Shown here: positions 381-55,512 of the stretch, piece by piece
How positions within the stretch are numbered: the stretch's first letter is position 1
Layout: every line of letters starts with the position of its first letter
From: Meloidogyne chitwoodi
Taxonomy: Eukaryota; Nematoda; Chromadorea; Rhabditida; Meloidogynidae
DNA length: 64,000 nucleotides
Reading direction: 5' to 3'
NCBI GenBank assembly: GCA_015183035.1
Contig: JACZZP010000007.1
Coordinates: forward strand, 2,108,001 to 2,172,000
Translations under genes and position numbers: made by a program
Notes under the pieces: generated by a model
The model's database searches: none
Told to the model about the DNA's origin: nothing
Seen by the model: the letters and a program-made list of their open reading frames with translations, nothing else

Positions 381-2719
381 AGGCGCCCCCACTGTTGAAG
401 ATTGCCAATTTATGATATATAAAAAATATTTTAGACTCTTCTTTGGTGAATTGATACAAATTGAAGCAAAATATACTAAAAAAAATTTTATCATTGAATA
501 TACTTCGAAGTCTGCGTCGTTTGATAGGTTTATTATTATTTTTTAATATTTTTATGATTTTCATTTTTTAATTTAAAGAATGTTTGCTGCACTTGGACGT
601 TTGGAATCTATAGACAATTGTGTCTCCAACTACATCTATCACAAATTAATGGGACATTTTGTTTCCGATGTTTCGTTTATGGTTTTTAGTTTTTGTTTTC
701 TAATTATTTTTATTTTTAGCTTGTACTGCCAACACTGTTTTCGGCTCCAGGCTTGCCGGTATTGAACCTTGGTCAAATAGAAGCTGTTAAAGCTGCTTTG
801 CGACATCCATTATGTTTAATACAGGTTTTTAATTTAAATGTTAAAACTTTTTGGCCTTGTTATTGCGGTAATTTTCTGTTTGCAATAAATCTTTTCTCCT
901 TAACCTTAAATGGTCAATTGTACATAATGGTCAGAAATCAATTTTTACAAGTCCCTTTCGTTTTAAAATGCTTATAACTTCAATTTAATCCTTATTGATG
1001 ATAATTGTCTGCCATAATGTCTGTCGATCATTTGTAGGTGTAAGAGAAAAGTTGAAAGGATGCTTGGAGTTAACCAGAAATTACCATTATTTTTTTTAAT
1101 AATTTTTATAGGGTGCTGCAGGAACAGGCAAAACTATTACTTCTGCTACTATTGCCTATCATCTTTCACACCAAAAAACTGGCCAAATACTTGTCTGTGC
1201 ACCGTCGAATATTGCTGTAGATCAATTAGCAGACAATATACATAAAACTGGACTAAATGTTATTCGTTTTTATGCAAAAGCTCGTGAAACTATTGATAGT
1301 TCTGTTGCTTTTTTGTCTTTACATAATCAACTTAAAGCAATTCAATCCGGAAAATTATTTGAATTAATGAAATTGAAGGTTTTATTTTTAAATTTAAAAA
1401 GATTATTATTATTTTTTTAATTTAAAGGAAGAAAATGGAAAGCTATCTAAAGCAGATCAAAAGCGTTTTATGTCTCTCAAGCTTCAACAAGAACACGAAA
1501 TCTTATCGAAAGCTGATGTGATTTGTTGCACATGTATTACTGCTGGTGATGTACGCTTGGCTAAAAAGGAATTTCGGTTTACTTTTTATATTTTTTATGA
1601 GCTTTATAAAAATATATTCAGTTGTGTTCTAATCGACGACTGTACACAAGCTACCGAACCTGAAGCATTGGTTTCTGTTGTAAAAGGAGCTCAACAGCTT
1701 GTCTTGGTTGGAGACAATCGTCAACTTGGACCTGTAATTAACTGCAAAAAGGCTGAAAAATCTGGACTTGGACAATCACTTTTTGAACGTTTAGTAATTC
1801 TTGGAAATCGTCCTACATGTCTTCAATTCCAATATAGAATGCATCCTGTTTTGTCATCATTTTCCAACAATGTATTTTATGAAGGATCTTTGCAAAATGG
1901 AGTCACTGAAGGTTAAATATTTTCTTAAAAATTTACAAATTTATTTTTTAATTTAGATGAAAGAAGTCTTGATGTTACCTTTTCTTGGCAATTTCCAAAT
2001 CCTGAGAAACCAATGATCTTTTGGAATTGTAATGGACAAGAGGTATAAAATTTTAAAAATTTATTCAGCATTTAAATATTAATTTAAAGGAACTTGGCAC
2101 TTCTGGGACTTCTTATTTGAATAGATTTGAAGCTGTAAATGTTGAAAAATTTGTTACTCGATTGTTACAAGCTGGATTTTCTCCTGATCAACTTGGCATT
2201 ATTACACCTTATGAAGGTTTTGTTTTTGAGATTATTTTTTATATTTTAAAAATAGATCAACGAGCTTATGTTGTTCAATTTATGCAATGTGTTGGTTCAT
2301 TAAACAAAAAATTGTATTTGGATATTAAAGTTGGAATCGTTGATGCTTTTCAGGTTTATTTTTTAATTTTTTCTACTTTTTTTTTTTAAATTCTTTTTTA
2401 GGGATGTGAAAAAGACATTATAATTCTCACTTGTGTGAACTCAAACGAGGCAGGTGGTACTGGCTTTCTTAATGATCCACGTCGTTTAAACGTTGCCTTA
2501 ACGCGTGCTAAATATGGATTAATTATAATTGGAAACGCAAAGGTTTTAAGCCGACAATATTTATGGCATCATTTATTGGTCACCTTTAAAGAAAATGAAT
2601 GCCTTTTTGAAGGAACTTTAAACAATCTGAAGCATTTTACAATTAATTTTACCGATCAACAACAAAATATGATTAATCAAAACCTTCTTACCGGAACAGG
2701 AACGTTAGTTTATATTTAA
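380..2719 (+). CDS. UPF1/SMG-2-like RNA helicase, degenerate and 5'-incomplete
   Basis: UPF1 is the superfamily 1 helicase of nonsense-mediated decay. Exons read by eye: 380-527, 579-681, 720-824, 1112-1378, 1428-1576, 1622-1911, 1957-2042, 2090-2216, 2256-2353 and 2402 onward. Visible UPF1 signatures in order are [33 protein letters not shown] (Walker A, normally GPPGTGKT), [29 protein letters not shown] (Walker B, normally DE), [39 protein letters not shown] (normally QGREKD) and [10 protein letters not shown]. The cysteine-histidine domain is not visible. About 100 residues of domain 1B are missing between KYTKK and the SFDR block. An in-frame stop at 376 lies inside the flanking MITE, so upstream exons are cut off or outside the window. 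Translation can stop at 2719, or splice at 2703 to 2748 into the peptidase module. It may be a divergent paralogue or a decaying copy; a full smg-2 is expected elsewhere. Confidence 0.8.
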
Positions 2720-2747
2720 AAAATTAAAATTCAAAAAAATTTTTTAG

Positions 2748-3797
2748 TTCTTCTATGTTTTCTTCACTTGAACAAATTAATTTGCAAAATCCTGAACAAA
2801 TTAAAACATCGAACTACAAAAATATGGATGACATTCCTTTGTGTTGTCATTTAAAGGCCTATTCAAAAAAATATTATATTGCAGTTCATGAAAGCGGACA
2901 CGCAGTTTTTGCTTGGAAGCACGGGTTTAGGCTCGGAGAGGTTTTTAATACGATTTTTAATTAATTTTTGATTAAATTTGATAGATTACAATCATTCCGG
3001 ATGAAAAGAGAAAATTTGGTGGTAGAACCGATTGGTTCAAAAAAGAAGAAGATACGGAAGAAAAGGAAATGCGAGAACGGTTGGGACTTTTCCTAGCAGG
3101 TCCAATAAGTGAGGAAATCATCTGCAAACGAAGATCAGCGGGTGCCGGTTCTGATTTCGAAAATGTTCGAGACACTGGAAATTCTATGGTATAATTTGTC
3201 TTATTTGAATAGTTTTTATTTACATTTTGTAGGTCTACGTAAGCGGTGTGACGGATAAACGTGTACTCACTGTTCACCCTGGGGCTTCTCAAGAAACAAT
3301 GACAGAGATGGATAGAGAAGTCACCAAAATTTTGAAAAAGGCATGGGATGATACGGAAAAATTCGTAAACGACGAAATAAAATTAATCCTTAAAGTTAGT
3401 TTTAAATTTAAAAATAAATTTTTAAAATTTATTTTTTAGTTTGCAGATGAACTTTTCAATAGAGATAAAATTAATGGAGACGATGCTAATGCGTAAGTTT
3501 CATTATTTTTCTTAGGGTATTTTTAATTCCATGGAAACACTCTTGTTTTTTAGATGTTGTTTTGTGGGTTTTGGAGAAATTGTAAAAGATTTTTTGGGAA
3601 ATTTTATTTATTTTTTATTCTTAATTTTTTTAAGTATACTTACACGACTACAAAATGAATTGGAACTTGAGAAAGTTCGCCTGGACGAAGAAGAAAAAAA
3701 TAAAATGGATGTGAACGAACAACAACAACGAGATGAGGACTCAGAAAAAAGGAAAAATGAAAAGGAAGAAAAATTTCGAAGGGAAGAGCAAGTTTAA
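2748..3797 (+). CDS. M41 (FtsH)-type zinc metallopeptidase domain without AAA module, membrane-anchored
   Basis: Exons: 2748-2940, 2985-3188, 3233-3394, 3440-3492 and 3554-3797. The product carries VHESGHAVF (HExxH zinc motif), then ITIIPDEKRKFGG. A helical block LGLFLAGPISEEII follows, then AGAGSDFENV, where the Asp matches the third zinc ligand of the M41 family. Next comes an ADELFNRDKINGDD block typical of the M41 C-terminus. After that sits a hydrophobic stretch of about 17 residues (FLGNFIYFLFLIFLSIL) and a charged Glu/Lys/Gln coiled-coil tail. There is no AAA ATPase domain, and the membrane segment is C-terminal rather than N-terminal. The first possible ATG is at 2755. However, exon 2748 is in phase with the upstream helicase exon through a 44 bp intron, so this may be the C-terminal half of a fusion. 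A separate trans-spliced gene remains possible. Confidence 0.65.
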
Positions 3798-5040
3798 GAT
3801 ATGTATAATTATTATCAAAAAATATTAAAGAAATGTTTATTATTCGTTATTGTTGGAAAATAATTTTAATTGTGCATTTAGACACGCTGTTTTATAATTT
3901 TTAATCCAGGTAAAATATTTTTTGTTTTGTTTAAACATACATAACAGGAACAAAACCAAAAGTAAATTTCGGAGCGCATAGACTACATATTTTGATAAAA
4001 ACATTTTTAACGCTAATAATATAATAAAATGAAAATAAGGTAAAATTAGTAGTAATCAGAATTTATAAAATCAGAATATGTAATTAAAAAGTGTATTTAA
4101 AACAATCAGAATTTGTTAAAATTATTAAATCAGAATTTGAAAAATTAAAGTTTGTAAAAAATCAGAATTTGTAAAATTAAATTTTGTAAACAAGTTATTA
4201 CAATTCATATATTAAATTAGTAAAAACAGAATTGTAAAAATTAGAATTATTACTGTATAAACATAAAACGCAAATAACCCACATTTGTAATATCAGATTT
4301 TTTTATTAAATTACAATTTTGATTAATACAATATATTCTGAATTATTTATTAATAAACACCTGATCGGCCGCCACGGGAGAGTGAGTTCCTTCTAGATAA
4401 CGTCTGTTTATCTCTCTTTGATCTCTAGCTGACATCACTCGTCCTGTTTTTAATAAATTTTGAGTTTTTACAATATAAATATAAGAGAAGATTACAATCT
4501 TAAATTTTTAACTTTTTTTATTAAAAAAATATTGTATAATAGAAACTAAATCTAAAAAGAGGTTCAAAATATTTATTTTAGGATTATCTAGGTGATTCTT
4601 AGGTAACTTTATTTCTTTATAAATCTTTTTTTATTAAAAAAATATTGTATAATAGAAACTAAATCTAAAAAGATCTAATGTAAGTGTAAAAATGAGAAAT
4701 TTAGCCCTTATATCAACTGTTTCTTCTTAAATCTTATTTTATTAATATAAGTTTTTATAATAAAAATAAGTTGAATAAAAACTCATGTTTCTTTCCATAA
4801 AATCTTATATTTAGCTAGCTCTTATATCAATTCTGTTTCTTTCTAATTATATTAGGTGATTCTTAGGTAACTTTATTTATTTAAAATCTTTTCTTATTAA
4901 AAAAATTTTGTATAATAAAATATAAGTTCAAAAATATTTTCAAAATTCTTTTTTAGCTATTTCTTATTTATATTAATGTATCTGAATAATGCTTTCAACT
5001 AGAAAATAATCTCAAAAAGAGCTCCATTTTATTTTAATGG
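3798..5040. other. Intergenic region with simple and dispersed repeats
   Basis: No gene is seen. About 4050-4260 holds tandem variants of ATCAGAATTTGTAAAATTA. A block reading TTATTAAAAAAATATTGTAT and the 25 bases after it occurs near 4515 and again near 4628. A block containing GGTGATTCTTAGGTAACTTT occurs near 4590 and 4855. A short GC-richer patch at 4363-4445 contains a small hairpin (AGATAA...TTATCT); no RNA family is recognised. Confidence 0.5.
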
Positions 5041-5570
5041 GCCCTATTACACAATATACGTCCAATCGACTTTTATACGTCCAATCGACTTTTATACGTC
5101 CAATCAAAGTTTATACGTCCAATCAACAAATTCGAAAATATAAAAATAGTCTTATTTATTATAAAGCCTTGCTCAAGGACTAATAGAGCTTTATTAAAAA
5201 ATATTAATAGTTTAAAAGAGCACACAGGGAATTTAGGCTACCTGGGGAGCCCTTAAGACTAGCATCAGCCACCTTCATGGCACTAATAAAGATATTTTAC
5301 CTTCATATCTCTTTCAATATATGTTTTGGCGTTTCCACAATAACAAAAAAATCTTTCAACATATATTGGAAGAGATGCGAATCCAATTCCCTGTTTAATT
5401 TGTTAAAACATTTAAAATTAATTTTAATTAAATTATATAAAAATTTGATTGGACGCATAGAAATTCGTTTGGACGTATAATCTTTTATTGGACGTATAAA
5501 CTTTGATTGGACGTATAAAAGTCGATTGGACGCATAAAAGTCGATTGGACGTATATTGTGTAATAGAGCC
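5041..5570. mobile_element. Foldback element whose inverted ends are tandem ~20 bp repeats
   Basis: The left arm (5041-5130) has four direct copies of TATACGTCCAATCGACTTTT-like units. The right arm (5448-5570) has about five copies of the complement. The outermost bases match as ATTACACAATATACGTCC and its complement. A second hairpin lies inside at about 5306-5378: TCTCTTTCAATATATGTT faces AACATATATTGGAAGAGA. No transposase frame is visible. Confidence 0.65.
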
Positions 5571-5584
5571 TTTTAATGTCCAAC

Positions 5585-14541: not shown

Positions 14542-16251
14542 ATGGTCCAAAAAGAAGACAAAAAAGGAAAGAAACAAATTAACAAAGAAGATGAATTTGA
14601 TAAAGAGGTTATTAAAATTTATTTTTATTTAATTTTATTTTTTTAAGTTAATTTCAAAAAATCCAAATCTTGAAATTGCCAAACTTTTTTTTCTTATGGG
14701 ACAAAAGAATGATTCTTCTCATTGGATGGCTTTACTTGAGGTTTATTTTTATTTTTTCTTCAACAGAATTTATATTTTAAGCATGTAAAACGTGATGAAA
14801 TGGCACCTTTTTATGAATATATGTGTTGCTCTTTAAAAATACCCATTGATCAAGCTTTAATGCAAAAATTAAAGGAACAAAATGATAAACGTTTGGGAGA
14901 AATTAACAGTCAATTGGAAGATGCAGAGAAAAATTTAGGTATTCTTTAAAAATAGATCTTTTATTTAATTTAAAAGTTTTTTTTTATTTGAATTTTTTTT
15001 GAATTTTTATTTTAAATAAAAGTAAATTTATTTTTAAGGAGAAAGTGAGGTTCGTCAAGCATGGTTAGCCAAATCTGAATATTATTGTCAACTTGGTGAT
15101 AAAGAAAATTCTGTTGCTTCTTTTAACAAAACATTTGAAAAAACTGTTGGAGGTGGTTATCGAATTGATTTGATTTTTAATTTAATTCGTATTGGGTTTT
15201 TCTTTATGGATCATCAATTAATTACTGAAAATATTGAAAAAGCAAGTGAATTGATGGAAAAGGTTTTCTTATTTTTATTTGATAAAATTTATTTTTTAGG
15301 GCGGTGATTGGGACAGAAAGAATCGTTTAAAGTCATATAAAGGACTTTACTTTATGGCTATTAGAGATATGAAAGGAGCAGCAGAACTTTTTCTTGAAGT
15401 TGTCCCAACTTTTGGAGCTCATGAATTGATGACTTATGAAGAATTAATTTTTTATGCTGTTATAACTTCTGTTTGTGGTTGTTATTTTAATATTTAAATT
15501 AAAATTTAAATTATTTTTTTAAAGCTTTGGAGCGTCCAGACTTGAAAGAAAAGGTTGTGAATTGCAGTGAAATTCAGCAACAGGTTTAAACTTTTATTTT
15601 AATTATAATTTACGTTTAAAAATTTTTTATTTCAGTTAAATGCCGAAAAATCTAAAGAAAATACCAATCTTCCACTTGCTAAAGAATTACTTGAAACATT
15701 TTATAATTGTGATTACAGCAATTTTATGATTGCTCTTGCTAAATTGGAAAGAGATTTTCTTGTTAAAGATCGTTATTTAAATTTACATTGTCAATTTTTT
15801 ACTCGAACAATGCGTGTCAAGGCTTATCAACAATTTTTAACTCCATATAAAACGGTTTTTTTATTTTTTTAAATTATATATTTTTATGGGAAATGTGAGA
15901 ATTTATTGTCTAATAATTTTAAAAATAAGTTCTTCCTCTAATTTAAATTTTTCAAAAAGTTTAATAATTTTTTTAAGGTTAGTTTGGACGTTATGGCAAA
16001 AAGTTTTGGTGTTACCAAAGAATATTTGGATCAACAATTATTTAATTTTATTTCTTCTGGAAAATTAAGTTGTCGTATAGATGCTTGTAAAGGAATTATT
16101 GAAACTGCACAAACTGACCAAAAGAATTTATTTTACAAAAAAATTATTCAGTAAATTTTAAAAACAATTTTATTTATTTATATTTTATTTTTATAGTGAT
16201 GGGGATATATTGCTTAACAAAGTTCAGAAGCTTTCTCGAATTATTAATTAA
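14542..16251 (+). CDS. rpn-7: 26S proteasome regulatory subunit RPN7 (PSMD6)
   Basis: A non-ATPase subunit of the proteasome lid that helps assemble the 19S regulatory particle. It is encoded in about eight exons from ATG 14542 to TAA 16249-16251, for roughly 385 residues (human PSMD6 has 389). Diagnostic stretches are [76 protein letters not shown] (PCI winged-helix region) and the terminal [12 protein letters not shown]. The N-terminus is Lys-rich ([12 protein letters not shown]). It looks intact. Its 3' flank is repeated as a direct repeat on the far side of the palindrome downstream. Confidence 0.93.
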
Positions 16252-16315
16252 ATTTTGGAGACAAAAATATGTGTTTTAAAAATTATTTTGTTTTTTTTAA
16301 TATTTTTGTGAAACA
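16249..16315 (+). repeat. Direct repeat flanking the palindrome, left copy (RPN7 3' end)
   Basis: The block TAAATTTTGGAGACAAAAAT and the following 45 bases reappear in the same orientation at 17879-17948, beyond the palindrome. The left copy includes the RPN7 stop codon, so it looks like the original. Confidence 0.7.
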
Positions 16316-16343
16316 AATAAAATTAATTTACAAAATCCAGAAC

Positions 16344-17104
16344 TAATTAAAACATCAAATTACAAAAATATTGACGAAATTCATTTGTGCTGCAACTTAA
16401 AGTCCTTATAAGTGAAGAAATTATCTGCAAACGTAGATCTGCGGGTGCTGGTTCGGACTTCGAAAATGTTAAAGATCTTGGAAATTCAATGGTATAATTT
16501 GTCTTATTTGCATAGTTTTTATTTACATTTTGTAGGTCTACGTAAGTGGGCGTCACGGATAAAAGAGTACTCACTGTTCGCCCTGGGGCTTCTGAACAAA
16601 CAATGGCAGAGATGGACAAAGAAGTCACCAAAATTTTAAAAAAGGCATGGGATGAAACAGAACAATTTGTTAACGAGGAAATAAAATTAATCCTTAAAGT
16701 TAGTTTTAAATTTTAAAAATAAATTTTTAAGATTTATTTTTTAGTTTGCTGATGAACTATTTAATAGAGATAAAATTAATGGAGACGATGCTAATGCGTA
16801 AGTTTCATTATTTTGCATAGAGTATTTTTAATTCCACGGAAAACTTCCTTGTTTTTTAGCTGTTGTTTTGTGGGTTTGGGAGAAATTGTAAAATATTTTT
16901 TGGGAAATTTTATTTATTTTTTATTCTTAATTTTTTTAAGTATACTTACACGACTCCAAAATGAATTGGATATTGAGAAAGTTCGCCTGGACGAAGAAGA
17001 AAAACAACATAAAAGAGATATGAAGGAACAACAACAACGAGAAGTGGACGCAGAAAAAAGGCGAAAAGAAAAGGAAGAAAAATTTCAAAAGGAAGAGGAA
17101 GTTT
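16344..17104 (+). pseudogene. Broken copy of the M41 peptidase module, left palindrome arm
   Basis: Homologous to about 2790-3797, with intron positions retained. The exon carrying HESGH has been deleted: sequence jumps from the LCCNLKSL region to ISEEIICKRRSAGAGSDFENV. A one-base insertion near 16550 shifts the frame to a stop shortly after YVSG. The membrane segment and coiled coil remain readable (LGNFIYFLFLIFLSIL, then Glu/Lys-rich sequence ending at TGA 17104). Zinc binding cannot survive, so this is a pseudogene. Confidence 0.75.
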
Positions 17105-17119
17105 GAGATATAATAATTA

Positions 17120-17870
17120 TTATCCCTTTTGAAATTTTTCTTCCTTTTCTTTTCGCCTTTTTTCTGCGTCCACTTCTCGTTGTTGTTGTTCCTTCATATC
17201 TCTTTTATGTTGTTTTTCTTCTTCGTCCAGGCGAACTTTCTCAATATCCAATTCATTTTGGAGTCGTGTAAGTATACTTAAAAAAATTAAGAATAAAAAA
17301 TAAATAAAATTTCCCAAAAAATATTTTACAATTTCTCCCAAACCCACAAAACAACAGCTAAAAAACAAGGAAGTTTTCCGTGGAATTAAAAATACTCTAT
17401 GCAAAATAATGAAACTTACGCATTAGCATCGTCTCCATTAATTTTATCTCTATTAAATAGTTCATCAGCAAACTAAAAAATAAATCTTAAAAATTTATTT
17501 TTAAAATTTAAAACTAACTTTAAGGATTAATTTTATTTCCTCGTTAACAAATTGTTCTGTTTCATCCCATGCCTTTTTTAAAATTTTGGTGACTTCTTTG
17601 TCCATCTCTGCCATTGTTTGTTCAGAAGCCCCAGGGCGAACAGTGAGTACTCTTTTATCCGTGACGCCCACTTACGTAGACCTACAAAATGTAAATAAAA
17701 ACTATGCAAATAAGACAAATTATACCATTGAATTTCCAAGATCTTTAACATTTTCGAAGTCCGAACCAGCACCCGCAGATCTACGTTTGCAGATAATTTC
17801 TTCACTTATAAGGACTTTAAGTTGCAGCACAAAGGAATTTCGTCAATATTTTTGTAATTTGATGTTTTAA
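17120..17870 (-). pseudogene. Broken copy of the M41 peptidase module, right palindrome arm
   Basis: Inverted copy of the left arm, with the same loss of the HESGH exon and the same frameshift. It begins inside the coiled-coil tail (…KEEKFQKG on the minus strand) and ends at AATTTGATGTTTTAATT, where the arms stop matching. Confidence 0.75.
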
Positions 17871-17878
17871 TTGGTTTA

Positions 17879-17948
17879 TTTAAATTTTGGAGATAAAAAT
17901 ATGTTTTAAAAATTATTTTGTTTTTTTTTAATTTTTTTGTGAAAAGAT
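17879..17948 (+). repeat. Direct repeat flanking the palindrome, right copy
   Basis: Begins TAAATTTTGGAGATAAAAAT and follows the 16249-16315 copy with a few changes. It is in direct, not inverted, orientation, so it is not part of the palindrome arms. Confidence 0.7.
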
Positions 17949-18055: not shown

Positions 18056-21000
18056 ATGAGAAAAAAATTTCGTGACAGTGACGACGACGAACAAGTTATT
18101 TTATCAGAGCCTAAAAATAAAGATTTAATTGAACGCAAACGTCATCGAAAACAAGAGAATTTAAAAAGGAAGAATATTGGAAATTTAATTGAACAAATTA
18201 CAAGTAAATACAATTCTCTTAATTCTGTAAGTGTTTATTGGATAAAACTAAAAATTTATTTTTTTATTTTTAAGGAAAGTTTTGTCGCAAACAAGTTTTC
18301 CGATTTTCCTCTCTCGCCATTTACACTTAAAGGACTAAATGATTCAAATTTCACAACACCAACAGATATTCAACTTCTTTCTCTTAAACATTCAATTAAT
18401 GGAAAAGATGTTGTTGGAGCAGCTAAGACGGGAAGTGGAAAAACTTTGGCTTTGCTTATTCCGGTTTAATTAATTTTATTAGTTTTTTAAACAAATTTGA
18501 GTAGTTTTTGGATATCTTAAATTTTATTTTTTAAGTTACTTGAATGCCTATGGCGAAATAAATGGACTAAATTTGATGGTCTAGGTGCTATAGTGATTAC
18601 TCCAACAAGAGAATTAGCCTTTCAAATTTTCCAAGTTTTAAATAATATTGGCAGTCATCACGATTTTTCTGCTGCTCTACTTATTGGAGGTTTTGTATAT
18701 TTTTTAATTTTATTCCCTCTTTAATTTCTTTAATCTGTAAATGTTTATGATTTAAAGATTTTTTATTTTGGGATAAATTAATTAACGCTTTGCGAAAGCA
18801 CATTAGATCAGCTTTTATTTCATGGCTTTTTTGTCTAATGTGTTTTTAAAAGCGATACATTTTCTTTGTAAAATTTTACAATAATATTTAATTCAAAATA
18901 ATATAGGTACTGACGTTAATTTTGAACGAGAACGTTTAGCTGGTATTTCAATAGTAATTTGCACTCCTGGTCGTCTACTACAACATATGGACGAGAACGG
19001 TTATTTTTGCTTTGATCAGCTTCAAATGCTTGTGATTGATGAAGCTGACAGAATATTAGATATGGGCTTTAGACAACAGGTTTTTTATCCTATTTTTCTA
19101 ATTTTTAAGTTTTATTTATTAAAGATTGATGCTATTATCGAAAATTTGCCAAATGAAAGACAGACTCTTTTATTCTCTGCAACACAAACTAGGAGAGTTG
19201 AAGATTTGGTTCGTGTTTCGCTAAAAGATCCAGTTTTTGTGTCTGCACATGAAGATGCTAAAAATGCAACTCCTGATAATCTAACACAAGTAAATTTATA
19301 TTATTTTAATGTTTTTTTTAATGAGTTCAACTTTTACGCTATTTTTTGACATTTTTCTTAATTTTTTAAAACATTTTACTTGACTATTTATTTGATACTT
19401 TCTTGTTAAACGTTACTCTTATCTTTTCTTTTTTTTTCTCCTAATACCTACAAATGGTCAATGAGATATAATGGTCAGACAGTCATCAATAAGAATAAAT
19501 TAAGTGATATACAAATATTTATGAAAAATAGGACATTTAACAGGAAAGTACAATTTATTTGAATCTAATAAAAATCTAGGGACTTGAGAAAATTCGAATT
19601 TTTGTTTTTATGATTTATAATTTTTCAGTCGATTGTTATAAATTAAATTTTCGACTTTTTACGTTGTTTTTTATTTTATTAATTTTTTTTTTTAATTTTT
19701 GTTCATTTATTAGTCCTATCTTGTATGTGAAGAAGAAGATAAAATTAACATTGTTTGGTCTTTTTTAAAAAATCATCAAAGAAAAAAGACTCTAATATTT
19801 GTTACAAGTTGTAAACAGGTTTAATTTATTAAATAATATTTTTAAAATTAATTTAATTATTTTTTCTAAAGGCTCGTTTTCTGACTGAAGCAATAACACA
19901 TTTACGTCCCGGCCTTTATTTTACAGGTTTATGGGGAAATTTAAAGCAAGGAAAAAGAATGGAAAGATTTCAACGTTTTGATGAAAATACTAAAGGTGCT
20001 GCTATGATTTGTACAGATGTAGCTAGTAGAGGTTTAGATTTTGTTGGACTTGATTGGGTTTTACAAATGGACTGTCCTCCGTCTGTGGATGATTATATTC
20101 ATAGGTTTTTTGAAATATATTTAATTTTTAAAAAAAATATTTAAGAATTTGACTCCTCGGACAATTTATAAAAATTGTTTTTAATTAAAAGATTCTTTTT
20201 TCTTTAGAGAATTCTTTTCAGTGTGAAAAGTTATTTTTTAAAATATTTTTCCGCTGATATAAATGTTTCGTCATTTTGCTGATTTTTAGATTTTTTTTTC
20301 AAAATTTCCATACAATCTTTAAAATTGGAAATTTTTAAATAATTTTTAATTAAAAGAGTTGGAAGAACTGCCCGAATGAACAAAAGTGGTGAAGCAATGC
20401 TTATTTTAACAAATAGTCAAGAAGGTCCATTTATTGAAATGTTACAATCTAGACAAATTCCAATTAACAAAGTTGAGTTAGTTAAAATTATTTTTTTTTA
20501 CTTTTTAATTTTTATTTTCTTTAAAAAAGGGTTGAAAAGAATAAATTATTTTCAATACAAATAAAGTTGGCTAATTTAATGATACCATTTCCTGATTTAA
20601 AACAATTTGGACAGAGTGTATTTTTTTTATTTTAATTTTTTTTTAAATTTATTTTTAATTTAGGCTTTTGTTTCCTATGCAAGAGCTATTTATTTTGCAC
20701 AATTGAAGAAAGTTTTTAATGTTGATTCAATAAATTTTGAGGCTCTAGCAAAGTTAATTTTTTATGATTAAACAAATTTTTTGCTTTAGACCCACACCTC
20801 ATTTATTAGCAAAAAAAGTTTAGTCCTAAAATGGCTTGAAAATAAAATGTTTTCTTTTGCGATTAAATGGGGTGTGTATCTAAACTACACAATTTCTTAT
20901 TTCTTTATGTTGACTTTTTGTCTATTTTTTATTTTTTTAAAGATCTTATGGTTTAACACTTACACCAAGAATTCGTTTTCTTCGTAAGCGTGGTATTAAT

Positions 21001-54295: not shown

Positions 54296-55512
54296 TAGAA
54301 TCTTTTTTTAAACCACTACCAAGTAATTAAAGAAAATATTATATTAATATTACCGAAAAATGTACGGATGGTAGAGTGCGCCTTAATTGCGGATACGGAA
54401 CCGTAAGAAAGTTTACACCCCATAAAATGACATTTTTGGAGGGAGAATTTATTAATAATTAAATTGGATGATTTCCTTAACCATTTTTTAGTAATATCCC
54501 ACATTTTGAGAATACTTGCATCAACAATGTCATCAATCTTTGATTGAGATGATTGAGACAGACATGGCTCAACACCTGTTGGCCCTCGGATTGAATTCAT
54601 GCCTCATTTAAGCTTAAATAATTAAATTTAAAAAAATTAACAATGTCATGTGAAATCTGCTTGGCCTCTTGAAGATCATAAGAATTGTCCATCGAAGCGT
54701 CTTAAACACGTTGTGACGCAGCACCGAGCCAAACAATAATGCGCTCTTTCATTTCCGTTTTGTTTGTCGTAGCTGACAACTTATAAAGCCAATAAGTTAT
54801 TCCAGAATTGACTCCTTCAATTGTTACCTGATTAATAAAATTAAAAATTGAATTAAAAATACTATTATAACCTTCGTAACCCTGAATCCCAAAAGAAAGG
54901 CGATTATGGTGTGAGAACTTTCGTGTAGTGCCACCATATCGCGTTAATCATCTTTAATATTCGATTTAAGGTACGAAGGTTATAATAGTATTTTTAATTC
55001 AATTTTTAATTTTATTAATCAGGTAACAATTGAAGGAGTCAATTCTGGAATAACTTATTGGCTTTATAAGTTGTCAGCTACGACAAACAAAACGGAAATG
55101 AAAGAGCGCATTATTGTTTGGCTCGGTGCTGCGTCACAACGTGTTTAAGACGCTTCGATGGACAATTCTTATGATCTTCAAGAGGCCAAGCAGATTTCAC
55201 ATGACATTGTTAATTTTTTTAAATTTAATTATTTAAGCTTAAATGAGGCATGAATTCAATCCGAGGGCCAACAGGTGTTGAGCCATGTCTGTCTCAATCA
55301 TCTCAATCAAAGATTGATGACATTGTTGATGCAAGTATTCTCAAAATGTGGGATATTACTAAAAAATGGTTAAGGAAATCATCCAATTTAATTAATAATA
55401 AATTCTTCCAGTAAAAATTTCTTTCTCCAAAAATGTCATTTTATGGGGTGTAAATTTTTTAAGGTTTTCCTGTTCTAACAATTAAAGGTAGTGGCTTAAG
55501 AAATAGATTCTA
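54296..55512. repeat. Large palindrome (~550-590 bp arms, ~85 bp loop)
   Basis: The left arm (54296 to about 54885) and right arm (about 54970-55512) are inverted copies. From about 54430 to 54880 they appear base-identical. Outer ends match as TAGAATCT...CCACTACC and its complement, with a small insertion in the right arm near 55418. The arms carry exon-like sequence. After an acceptor (TTAATCAG) one frame reads VTIEGVNSGITYWLYKLSA to AASQRV-stop. Another starts MNSIRGPTGVEPCLSQSSQ and continues with IVDASILKMWDITKKWL. Neither is recognised. Confidence 0.8.
54316..54600 (-). pseudogene. Unrecognised coding-like fragment in the left palindrome arm
   Basis: A 94-codon frame starting MNSIRGPTGVEPCLSQSSQS and including DDIVDASILKMWDITKKWL and KCHFMGCKLSYGSVSAIKAH. 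The right arm repeats its first ~65 codons, then is disrupted near 55418. It may be the remains of a captured host exon or an uncharacterised transposon protein; no family is recognised. Confidence 0.35.

Follow-up and report, generated by a model that had tools for sequence, protein, structure and literature searches.

Between an RPN7/PSMD6 gene and a DEAD-box helicase gene of Meloidogyne chitwoodi lies a near-perfect inverted repeat, and the locus is probably an arm-converted palindrome that arose out of a captured gene fragment and is flanked by a duplication of unusual length. The window, i.e., the whole 64,000-nucleotide stretch that was analysed, corresponds to G000:C28:2108001-2172000 of a 47.5-Mb, 30-contig genome. 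The inverted arms, 16341-17092 and 17125-17876, were found by blastn to be identical at 750 of 752 positions without gaps, and this length and identity exclude chance. The features are as follows (window coordinates).

2774..3816, plus strand: parent sequence, the M41-peptidase end of a predicted UPF1-like helicase-M41 gene (blastn; Pfam; genome search for the 3105-3791 part)
2861..3104, plus strand: parent stretch missing from both arms, 244 bp including the HESGH codons (gap between blastn pieces; tblastn)
14542..16251, plus strand: RPN7/PSMD6 gene, exons by eye, stop TAA at 16249-16251 (PF10602, E 1.9e-62; PDB PSMD6, E 1.2e-111)
16248..16313, plus strand: first (left-hand) copy of the flanking repeat, made of RPN7 3'UTR (alignment)
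16314..16340, plus strand: left-only outer end of the M41 copy, missing from the right arm (parent homology from 16320, blastn)
16341..17092, plus strand: left palindrome arm, sense to the parent, introns kept, one-base frameshift near 16549 (blastn, repeat search)
17093..17124, no strand: central spacer, 32 nt, parent-homologous, being left-arm sequence without a right-arm partner (self-blast, 3105-3816 against 16408-17124)
17125..17876, minus strand: right palindrome arm, its plus strand antisense to the parent (blastn, repeat search)
17880..17944, plus strand: second (right-hand) copy of the flanking repeat, separated from the right arm by 3 nt (alignment)
18056..18694, plus strand: first part of the DEAD-box helicase gene, ATG at 18056 (PF00270, E 4.3e-19 on 172 residues)
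54399..55466, no strand: second near-perfect palindrome of the window, clean core of 423 columns, weak similarity to M41, ends marked by a dispersed repeat

The preliminary description had reported a near-perfect palindrome of M41 sequence with arms of ~755 bp lying ~15 bp apart. The palindrome is present as claimed, and the M41 label holds, the copy scoring above the PF01434 cut-off. The near-identity of the arms likewise stood, at a length of 752 bp, but the spacing did not, the spacer measuring 32 nt in the repeat search with the same arm bounds as blastn. This 32-nt centre and the outermost ~21 nt on the left have homology to the parent but no counterpart in the right arm, and since both occur in the left unit only, the right arm is contained within the left. 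The two mismatches between the arms, at 16344 (left T, right C, in arm orientation) and 16383 (left A, right C), are both confined to the outermost 43 bp of the 752-bp arms. At 16383, the parent's base has been kept by the right arm and the left arm is derived; at 16344, the left arm, the right arm, and the parent all differ. The palindrome is bracketed by a direct repeat of ~66 bp, 16248-16313 and 17880-17944, which is 92.5% identical (62/67 columns, E 3.7e-20), its copies differing by two substitutions and two indels over 67 columns. A direct repeat of ~65 bp from the RPN7 3' end had been proposed; its orientation and length were borne out, but as it begins at the stop codon TAA (16249-16251), it represents the RPN7 3'UTR rather than the coding 3' end. 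Microhomology at the junctions was slight, about TGAA at the left and none clear at the centre, as judged by eye.

The M41 end of the parent sits 13 kb upstream of the palindrome and is ~90% identical to it. Homology to the copy falls into two blastn pieces, 2774-2860 (84%) and 3105-3816 (90%), and the arms are without the parent's HExxH codons. The predicted parent protein matched PF01434 with an E value of 7.4e-19, and the upstream exons of the parent, joined by eye, correspond to a UPF1-type helicase (PDB UPF1, E 3.6e-180). Over 580-3797 of the window, a predicted UPF1/SMG-2-like helicase core and a C-terminal M41 peptidase domain share one reading frame as judged by eye, giving a putative fusion with a putative start. 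Another UPF1-like copy is located 13 kb past the window end (G000:C28:2185402-2186870), with 67-89% identity depending on the matched piece, and the M41 query detected no M41 part there. The introns kept in the arms of the palindrome indicate that the copy was made from DNA, and the one-base frameshift near 16549 together with the missing HESGH motif identify it as a pseudogene fragment.

Differences between parent and copy were counted at 52/465 exon sites and 12/228 intron sites, with bounds set by eye. The synonymous divergence (dS 0.31) is far above the intron divergence, and dN/dS is 0.26; going by this low ratio, the copy may once have been under constraint. At sites involving G or C, exons and introns differed equally (36/175 and 10/48), but A-T changes were still unequal (12/257 in exons vs 2/181 in introns), so that the AT-biased composition accounts for much, though not all, of the exon-intron gap. 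The search for homologous proteins of the M41 end returned 472 candidates, none at E <= 0.001, and so gave no basis for dating by relatives.

The flanking repeat and the traceable parent provide internal clocks against which the identity of the arms can be set. Divergence is about 3-5% in the flanking repeat and the parent-copy introns, the former imprecise as an estimate owing to the shortness of the repeat, and 0.27% between the arms. Substitution rates of the two clocks are alike (2/64 vs 12/228, p 0.74), and both date the insertion, not necessarily the inverted copy. The intronic parts of the arms showed no difference over ~230 positions, which differs from the parent-copy introns with p 0.0002 and from the flanking repeat with p 0.002 when indels are included and p 0.047 for substitutions alone. 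The preliminary description had left it open whether the event was recent or the arms were being converted; as the arms have diverged less than either the flanking repeat or the parent-copy introns, conversion fits better, and the clean cores with diverged edges seen in other palindromes point the same way.

The positions of the differences were evaluated as the chance of so long a clean run, with arms only and uniform placement. The palindrome at 16341-17876 gave p 0.0097, a value based on two mismatches in all, one of which, at 16344, may reflect where homology ends and not a mutation. Corresponding values were 7.5e-5 for the palindrome at 54399-55466, 0.003 for L018, whose arm is cut by the start of the locus, and 0.10 and 0.19 for L052 and L025, which are non-significant alone. 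Combined over these five, p was 7e-7; the spacing test covered seven repeats, and the lower-identity L051 (p 0.135) and L053 (p 0.008), the latter with differences clustering towards the inner end, stand outside the combination. The clean-run p values are optimistic because alignment ends can gather chance mismatches.

The explanation that we prefer, and regard as moderately probable, is an old template-switch or break-repair insertion whose arms have since been homogenised by arm-to-arm gene conversion. One event near the RPN7 stop, either a replication template switch or the repair of a staggered break, would have copied the M41 fragment in, produced the inverted copy by folding back, and re-entered ~66 bp upstream of where it had left. 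Later, minor asymmetric losses, of 32 nt at the centre and also at the outer end, would have helped to stabilise the palindrome, and gene conversion between the arms would have preserved the identity of the cores as edges and flanking repeat diverged. Capture of a fragment with a long duplication by break repair or template switching had been suggested beforehand; it fits the anatomy, but the anatomy does not diagnose it. Points against the preferred explanation are the slight microhomology at the junctions and the absence of a significant flanking direct repeat at the two other palindromes examined for one. That no more than 3 nt separate the right arm from the second UTR copy is explained by a single event and suggests a joint origin of insertion and palindrome, and if the two arose together, the arms must have been homogenised. 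The main rival is a recent inverted duplication of an old insert, in which the M41 insert and the UTR duplication decayed singly before the inverted copy was made and no conversion is needed, since recency suffices for the identity of the arms if the inverted copy is a later event. The complete left unit, of which the right arm is a subset, and the 2/752 differences, as in a young copy, would be expected from it; it requires, however, that the inverted copy landed exactly between the insert end at 17124 and the second UTR copy, and it leaves the edge-located differences, seen here and significantly in 54399-55466 and L018, to be accounted for. We consider this two-step origin possible but the less plausible of the two.

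Two further explanations appear improbable to different degrees. Fold-back chimeras are a known class of artefact, and a chimeric or hairpin-adapter read could have made the inverted arm during library preparation or assembly; we regard this as quite unlikely, as the right arm runs into an independently diverged UTR copy and not into mirrored RPN7, two sites differ between the arms with the parental base at 16383 in the right one, and diverged edges occur in other palindromes of the assembly. Slightly less likely again is a transposed foldback or Pack-type element carrying a captured gene fragment. Long inverted arms with a gene fragment and a flanking duplication do look like such elements, and Tm1 Mutator/Foldback elements occur in root-knot nematodes (PMC3169594). 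Against this stand arm ends made of ordinary parent-gene sequence, a flanking repeat of ~66 bp compared with 9 bp, and the scarcity of copies: apart from the parent, both arms and the flanking repeat, the genome search, whose counts are lower bounds, listed one AT-rich match of 47 bp, on C27. No other genomic copy with the ends of the palindrome was found among the three candidates scored, nor were dispersed copies with common termini seen among the matches listed (again lower bounds). The foldback-transposon reading was thus dropped on copy number and flanking-repeat length. The same search, which the preliminary description had called for, gives no support to its suggestion that the fragment moved as a palindromic unit, and neither does the left arm, which holds the whole right arm and both extra ends.

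Close precedents are found in Caenorhabditis. Long near-identical inverted repeats were reported there by Zhao et al. (2007), who discuss gene conversion and stabilisation by central asymmetry (PMC1803023); long near-perfect palindromes are otherwise expected to suffer rapid deletion or breakage (PMC1803023). The near-identical arms and short spacer of the present palindrome (750/752; 32 nt) are those of a Caenorhabditis-type arm-converted palindrome, and the two cases also share a nematode host, gene conversion as one proposed mechanism and, here if the inverted copy is as old as the insertion, arms far more alike than age predicts (PMC1803023). However, the Caenorhabditis repeats, as described there, lie between or within intact paralogous gene pairs and the case for them rests on a comparison of three species, whereas the present arms are a decayed gene fragment and the case rests on one genome. 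Tm1 elements likewise have long inverted repeats in a nematode genome, but their target duplications are mostly 9 bp, unlike the ~66-bp repeat found here, and they have defined terminal motifs (A-D) and dispersed copies, the latter not seen for the present palindrome among the matches listed (PMC3169594). The anatomy resembles ODIRA or inverted triplication in that template switching gives palindromic junctions with flanking direct duplications that are later rearranged; ODIRA amplifies a local segment, whereas the present fragment came from 13 kb away, and short inverted repeats at both switch points were not among the features observed here (PMC10766186). A survey of parthenogenetic animals gave one palindrome in M. 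incognita and three in M. arenaria (PMC7953838); these counts were based on annotated collinear genes, and the method would probably miss palindromes of the present scale. Literature searches on palindromes and inverted repeats, on gene conversion, and on hairpin RNA listed no title or abstract opening that reports a comparable gene-fragment palindrome. Through its internal clocks, the locus offers a test of arm-to-arm gene conversion in DNA that seems to be without function.

The structure fits a candidate hairpin-RNA (hpRNA) locus aimed at its parent gene, in that the palindrome is a long inverted repeat homologous to a protein-coding gene, with ~90% identity between arms and parent. Within 3105-3816, the palindrome and the parent have six exact stretches of >=21 nt in common (233 nt in total), three of which include 21 or more exonic nt under the exon bounds applied. 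The predicted RNA fold of the palindrome reached -1267.5 kcal/mol over 1536 nt. It is nevertheless rather unlikely that the locus is one of many gene-fragment palindromes kept genome-wide by conversion, whose ~750-bp double-stranded stem would be transcribed from the interval between RPN7 and the DEAD-box gene and be diced into siRNAs silencing the parental helicase-M41 gene; if it were, gene conversion would sustain an RNAi-based regulatory layer in a nematode. For hpRNA loci of Drosophila, the proposal is that they typically arise from their own targets, and hp-ODox1 includes ~200 bp of exon sequence from its parental gene (PMC10317233). As in those loci, the arms of the present inverted repeat derive from a protein-coding gene, there the target; unlike in them, introns lie inside the arms (PMC10317233).

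Other palindromes were also observed. At 54399-55466, six differences fall in the outer 73 columns and the centre is diverged. Its M41-like content is weak (tblastn E 0.026): the joined piece matched Pfam M41 with E 0.0011, which is under the cut-off and ranks lower than a match to M50B, and no Pfam match remained when the HESSH exon was left out of the piece. In a 130-kb sample, one of 13 stretches of 10 kb held a palindrome qualifying by arms >200 bp, >=95% identity, and a spacer <150 bp, namely L052:3088-4124 (C9); several others hold inverted repeats of lower identity or longer spacer. The ~500-bp arms of L052:3088-4124 appear by eye to be a decayed gene fragment with introns; its pieces had no Pfam match, and the genome search listed, its own arms aside, two short matches on C30. 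Diverged edges around a clean core recur at 54399-55466 and, less clearly, at L052, and neither palindrome has a significant flanking direct repeat. In a non-random set of 18 loci of ~3 kb each, the arms of L018 are 379 bp long at 98.4% identity and enclose a spacer of 315 bp, and those of L025 are 175 bp long (98.9%) around a spacer of 227 bp. The L018 inverted repeat (L018:1-1070, C6), one arm of which is cut by the locus start, adjoins SL1 leader sequence. No near-perfect palindrome was found at the other M41 loci L006, L007, L009, L010, L012, and L017 (~3 kb each), L007 having weak palindromes of 70-81%. Extrapolation from one in 130 kb gives ~365 palindromes per genome (95% interval 9-2035). 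If they are as common as this small sample hints, the genome would be a good one for studying palindrome formation, persistence, and links to RNA interference.

The DEAD-box helicase gene that begins at 18056 is, by similarity, presumably DDX10-like. By arithmetic, its ATG would lie about 170 bp from the RPN7 stop without the insert, a spacing compatible with a putative operon. The 22-nt nematode SL1 leader had seven exact matches in the window and its reversed control had none, which identifies the host as a nematode. The G+C content is 23.9% in the window and 22.6% across the 130 kb sampled elsewhere. Rfam at gathering thresholds gave no matches over the whole window, and a bacterial-type scan returned 7 promoter-like sites vs 9.9 expected and no terminators, these models not being meaningful for a eukaryote. 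An inverted repeat of 95% identity, built of tandem ATACGTCCAATC-like units, is also present at 5034-5126 and 5484-5576 of the window.
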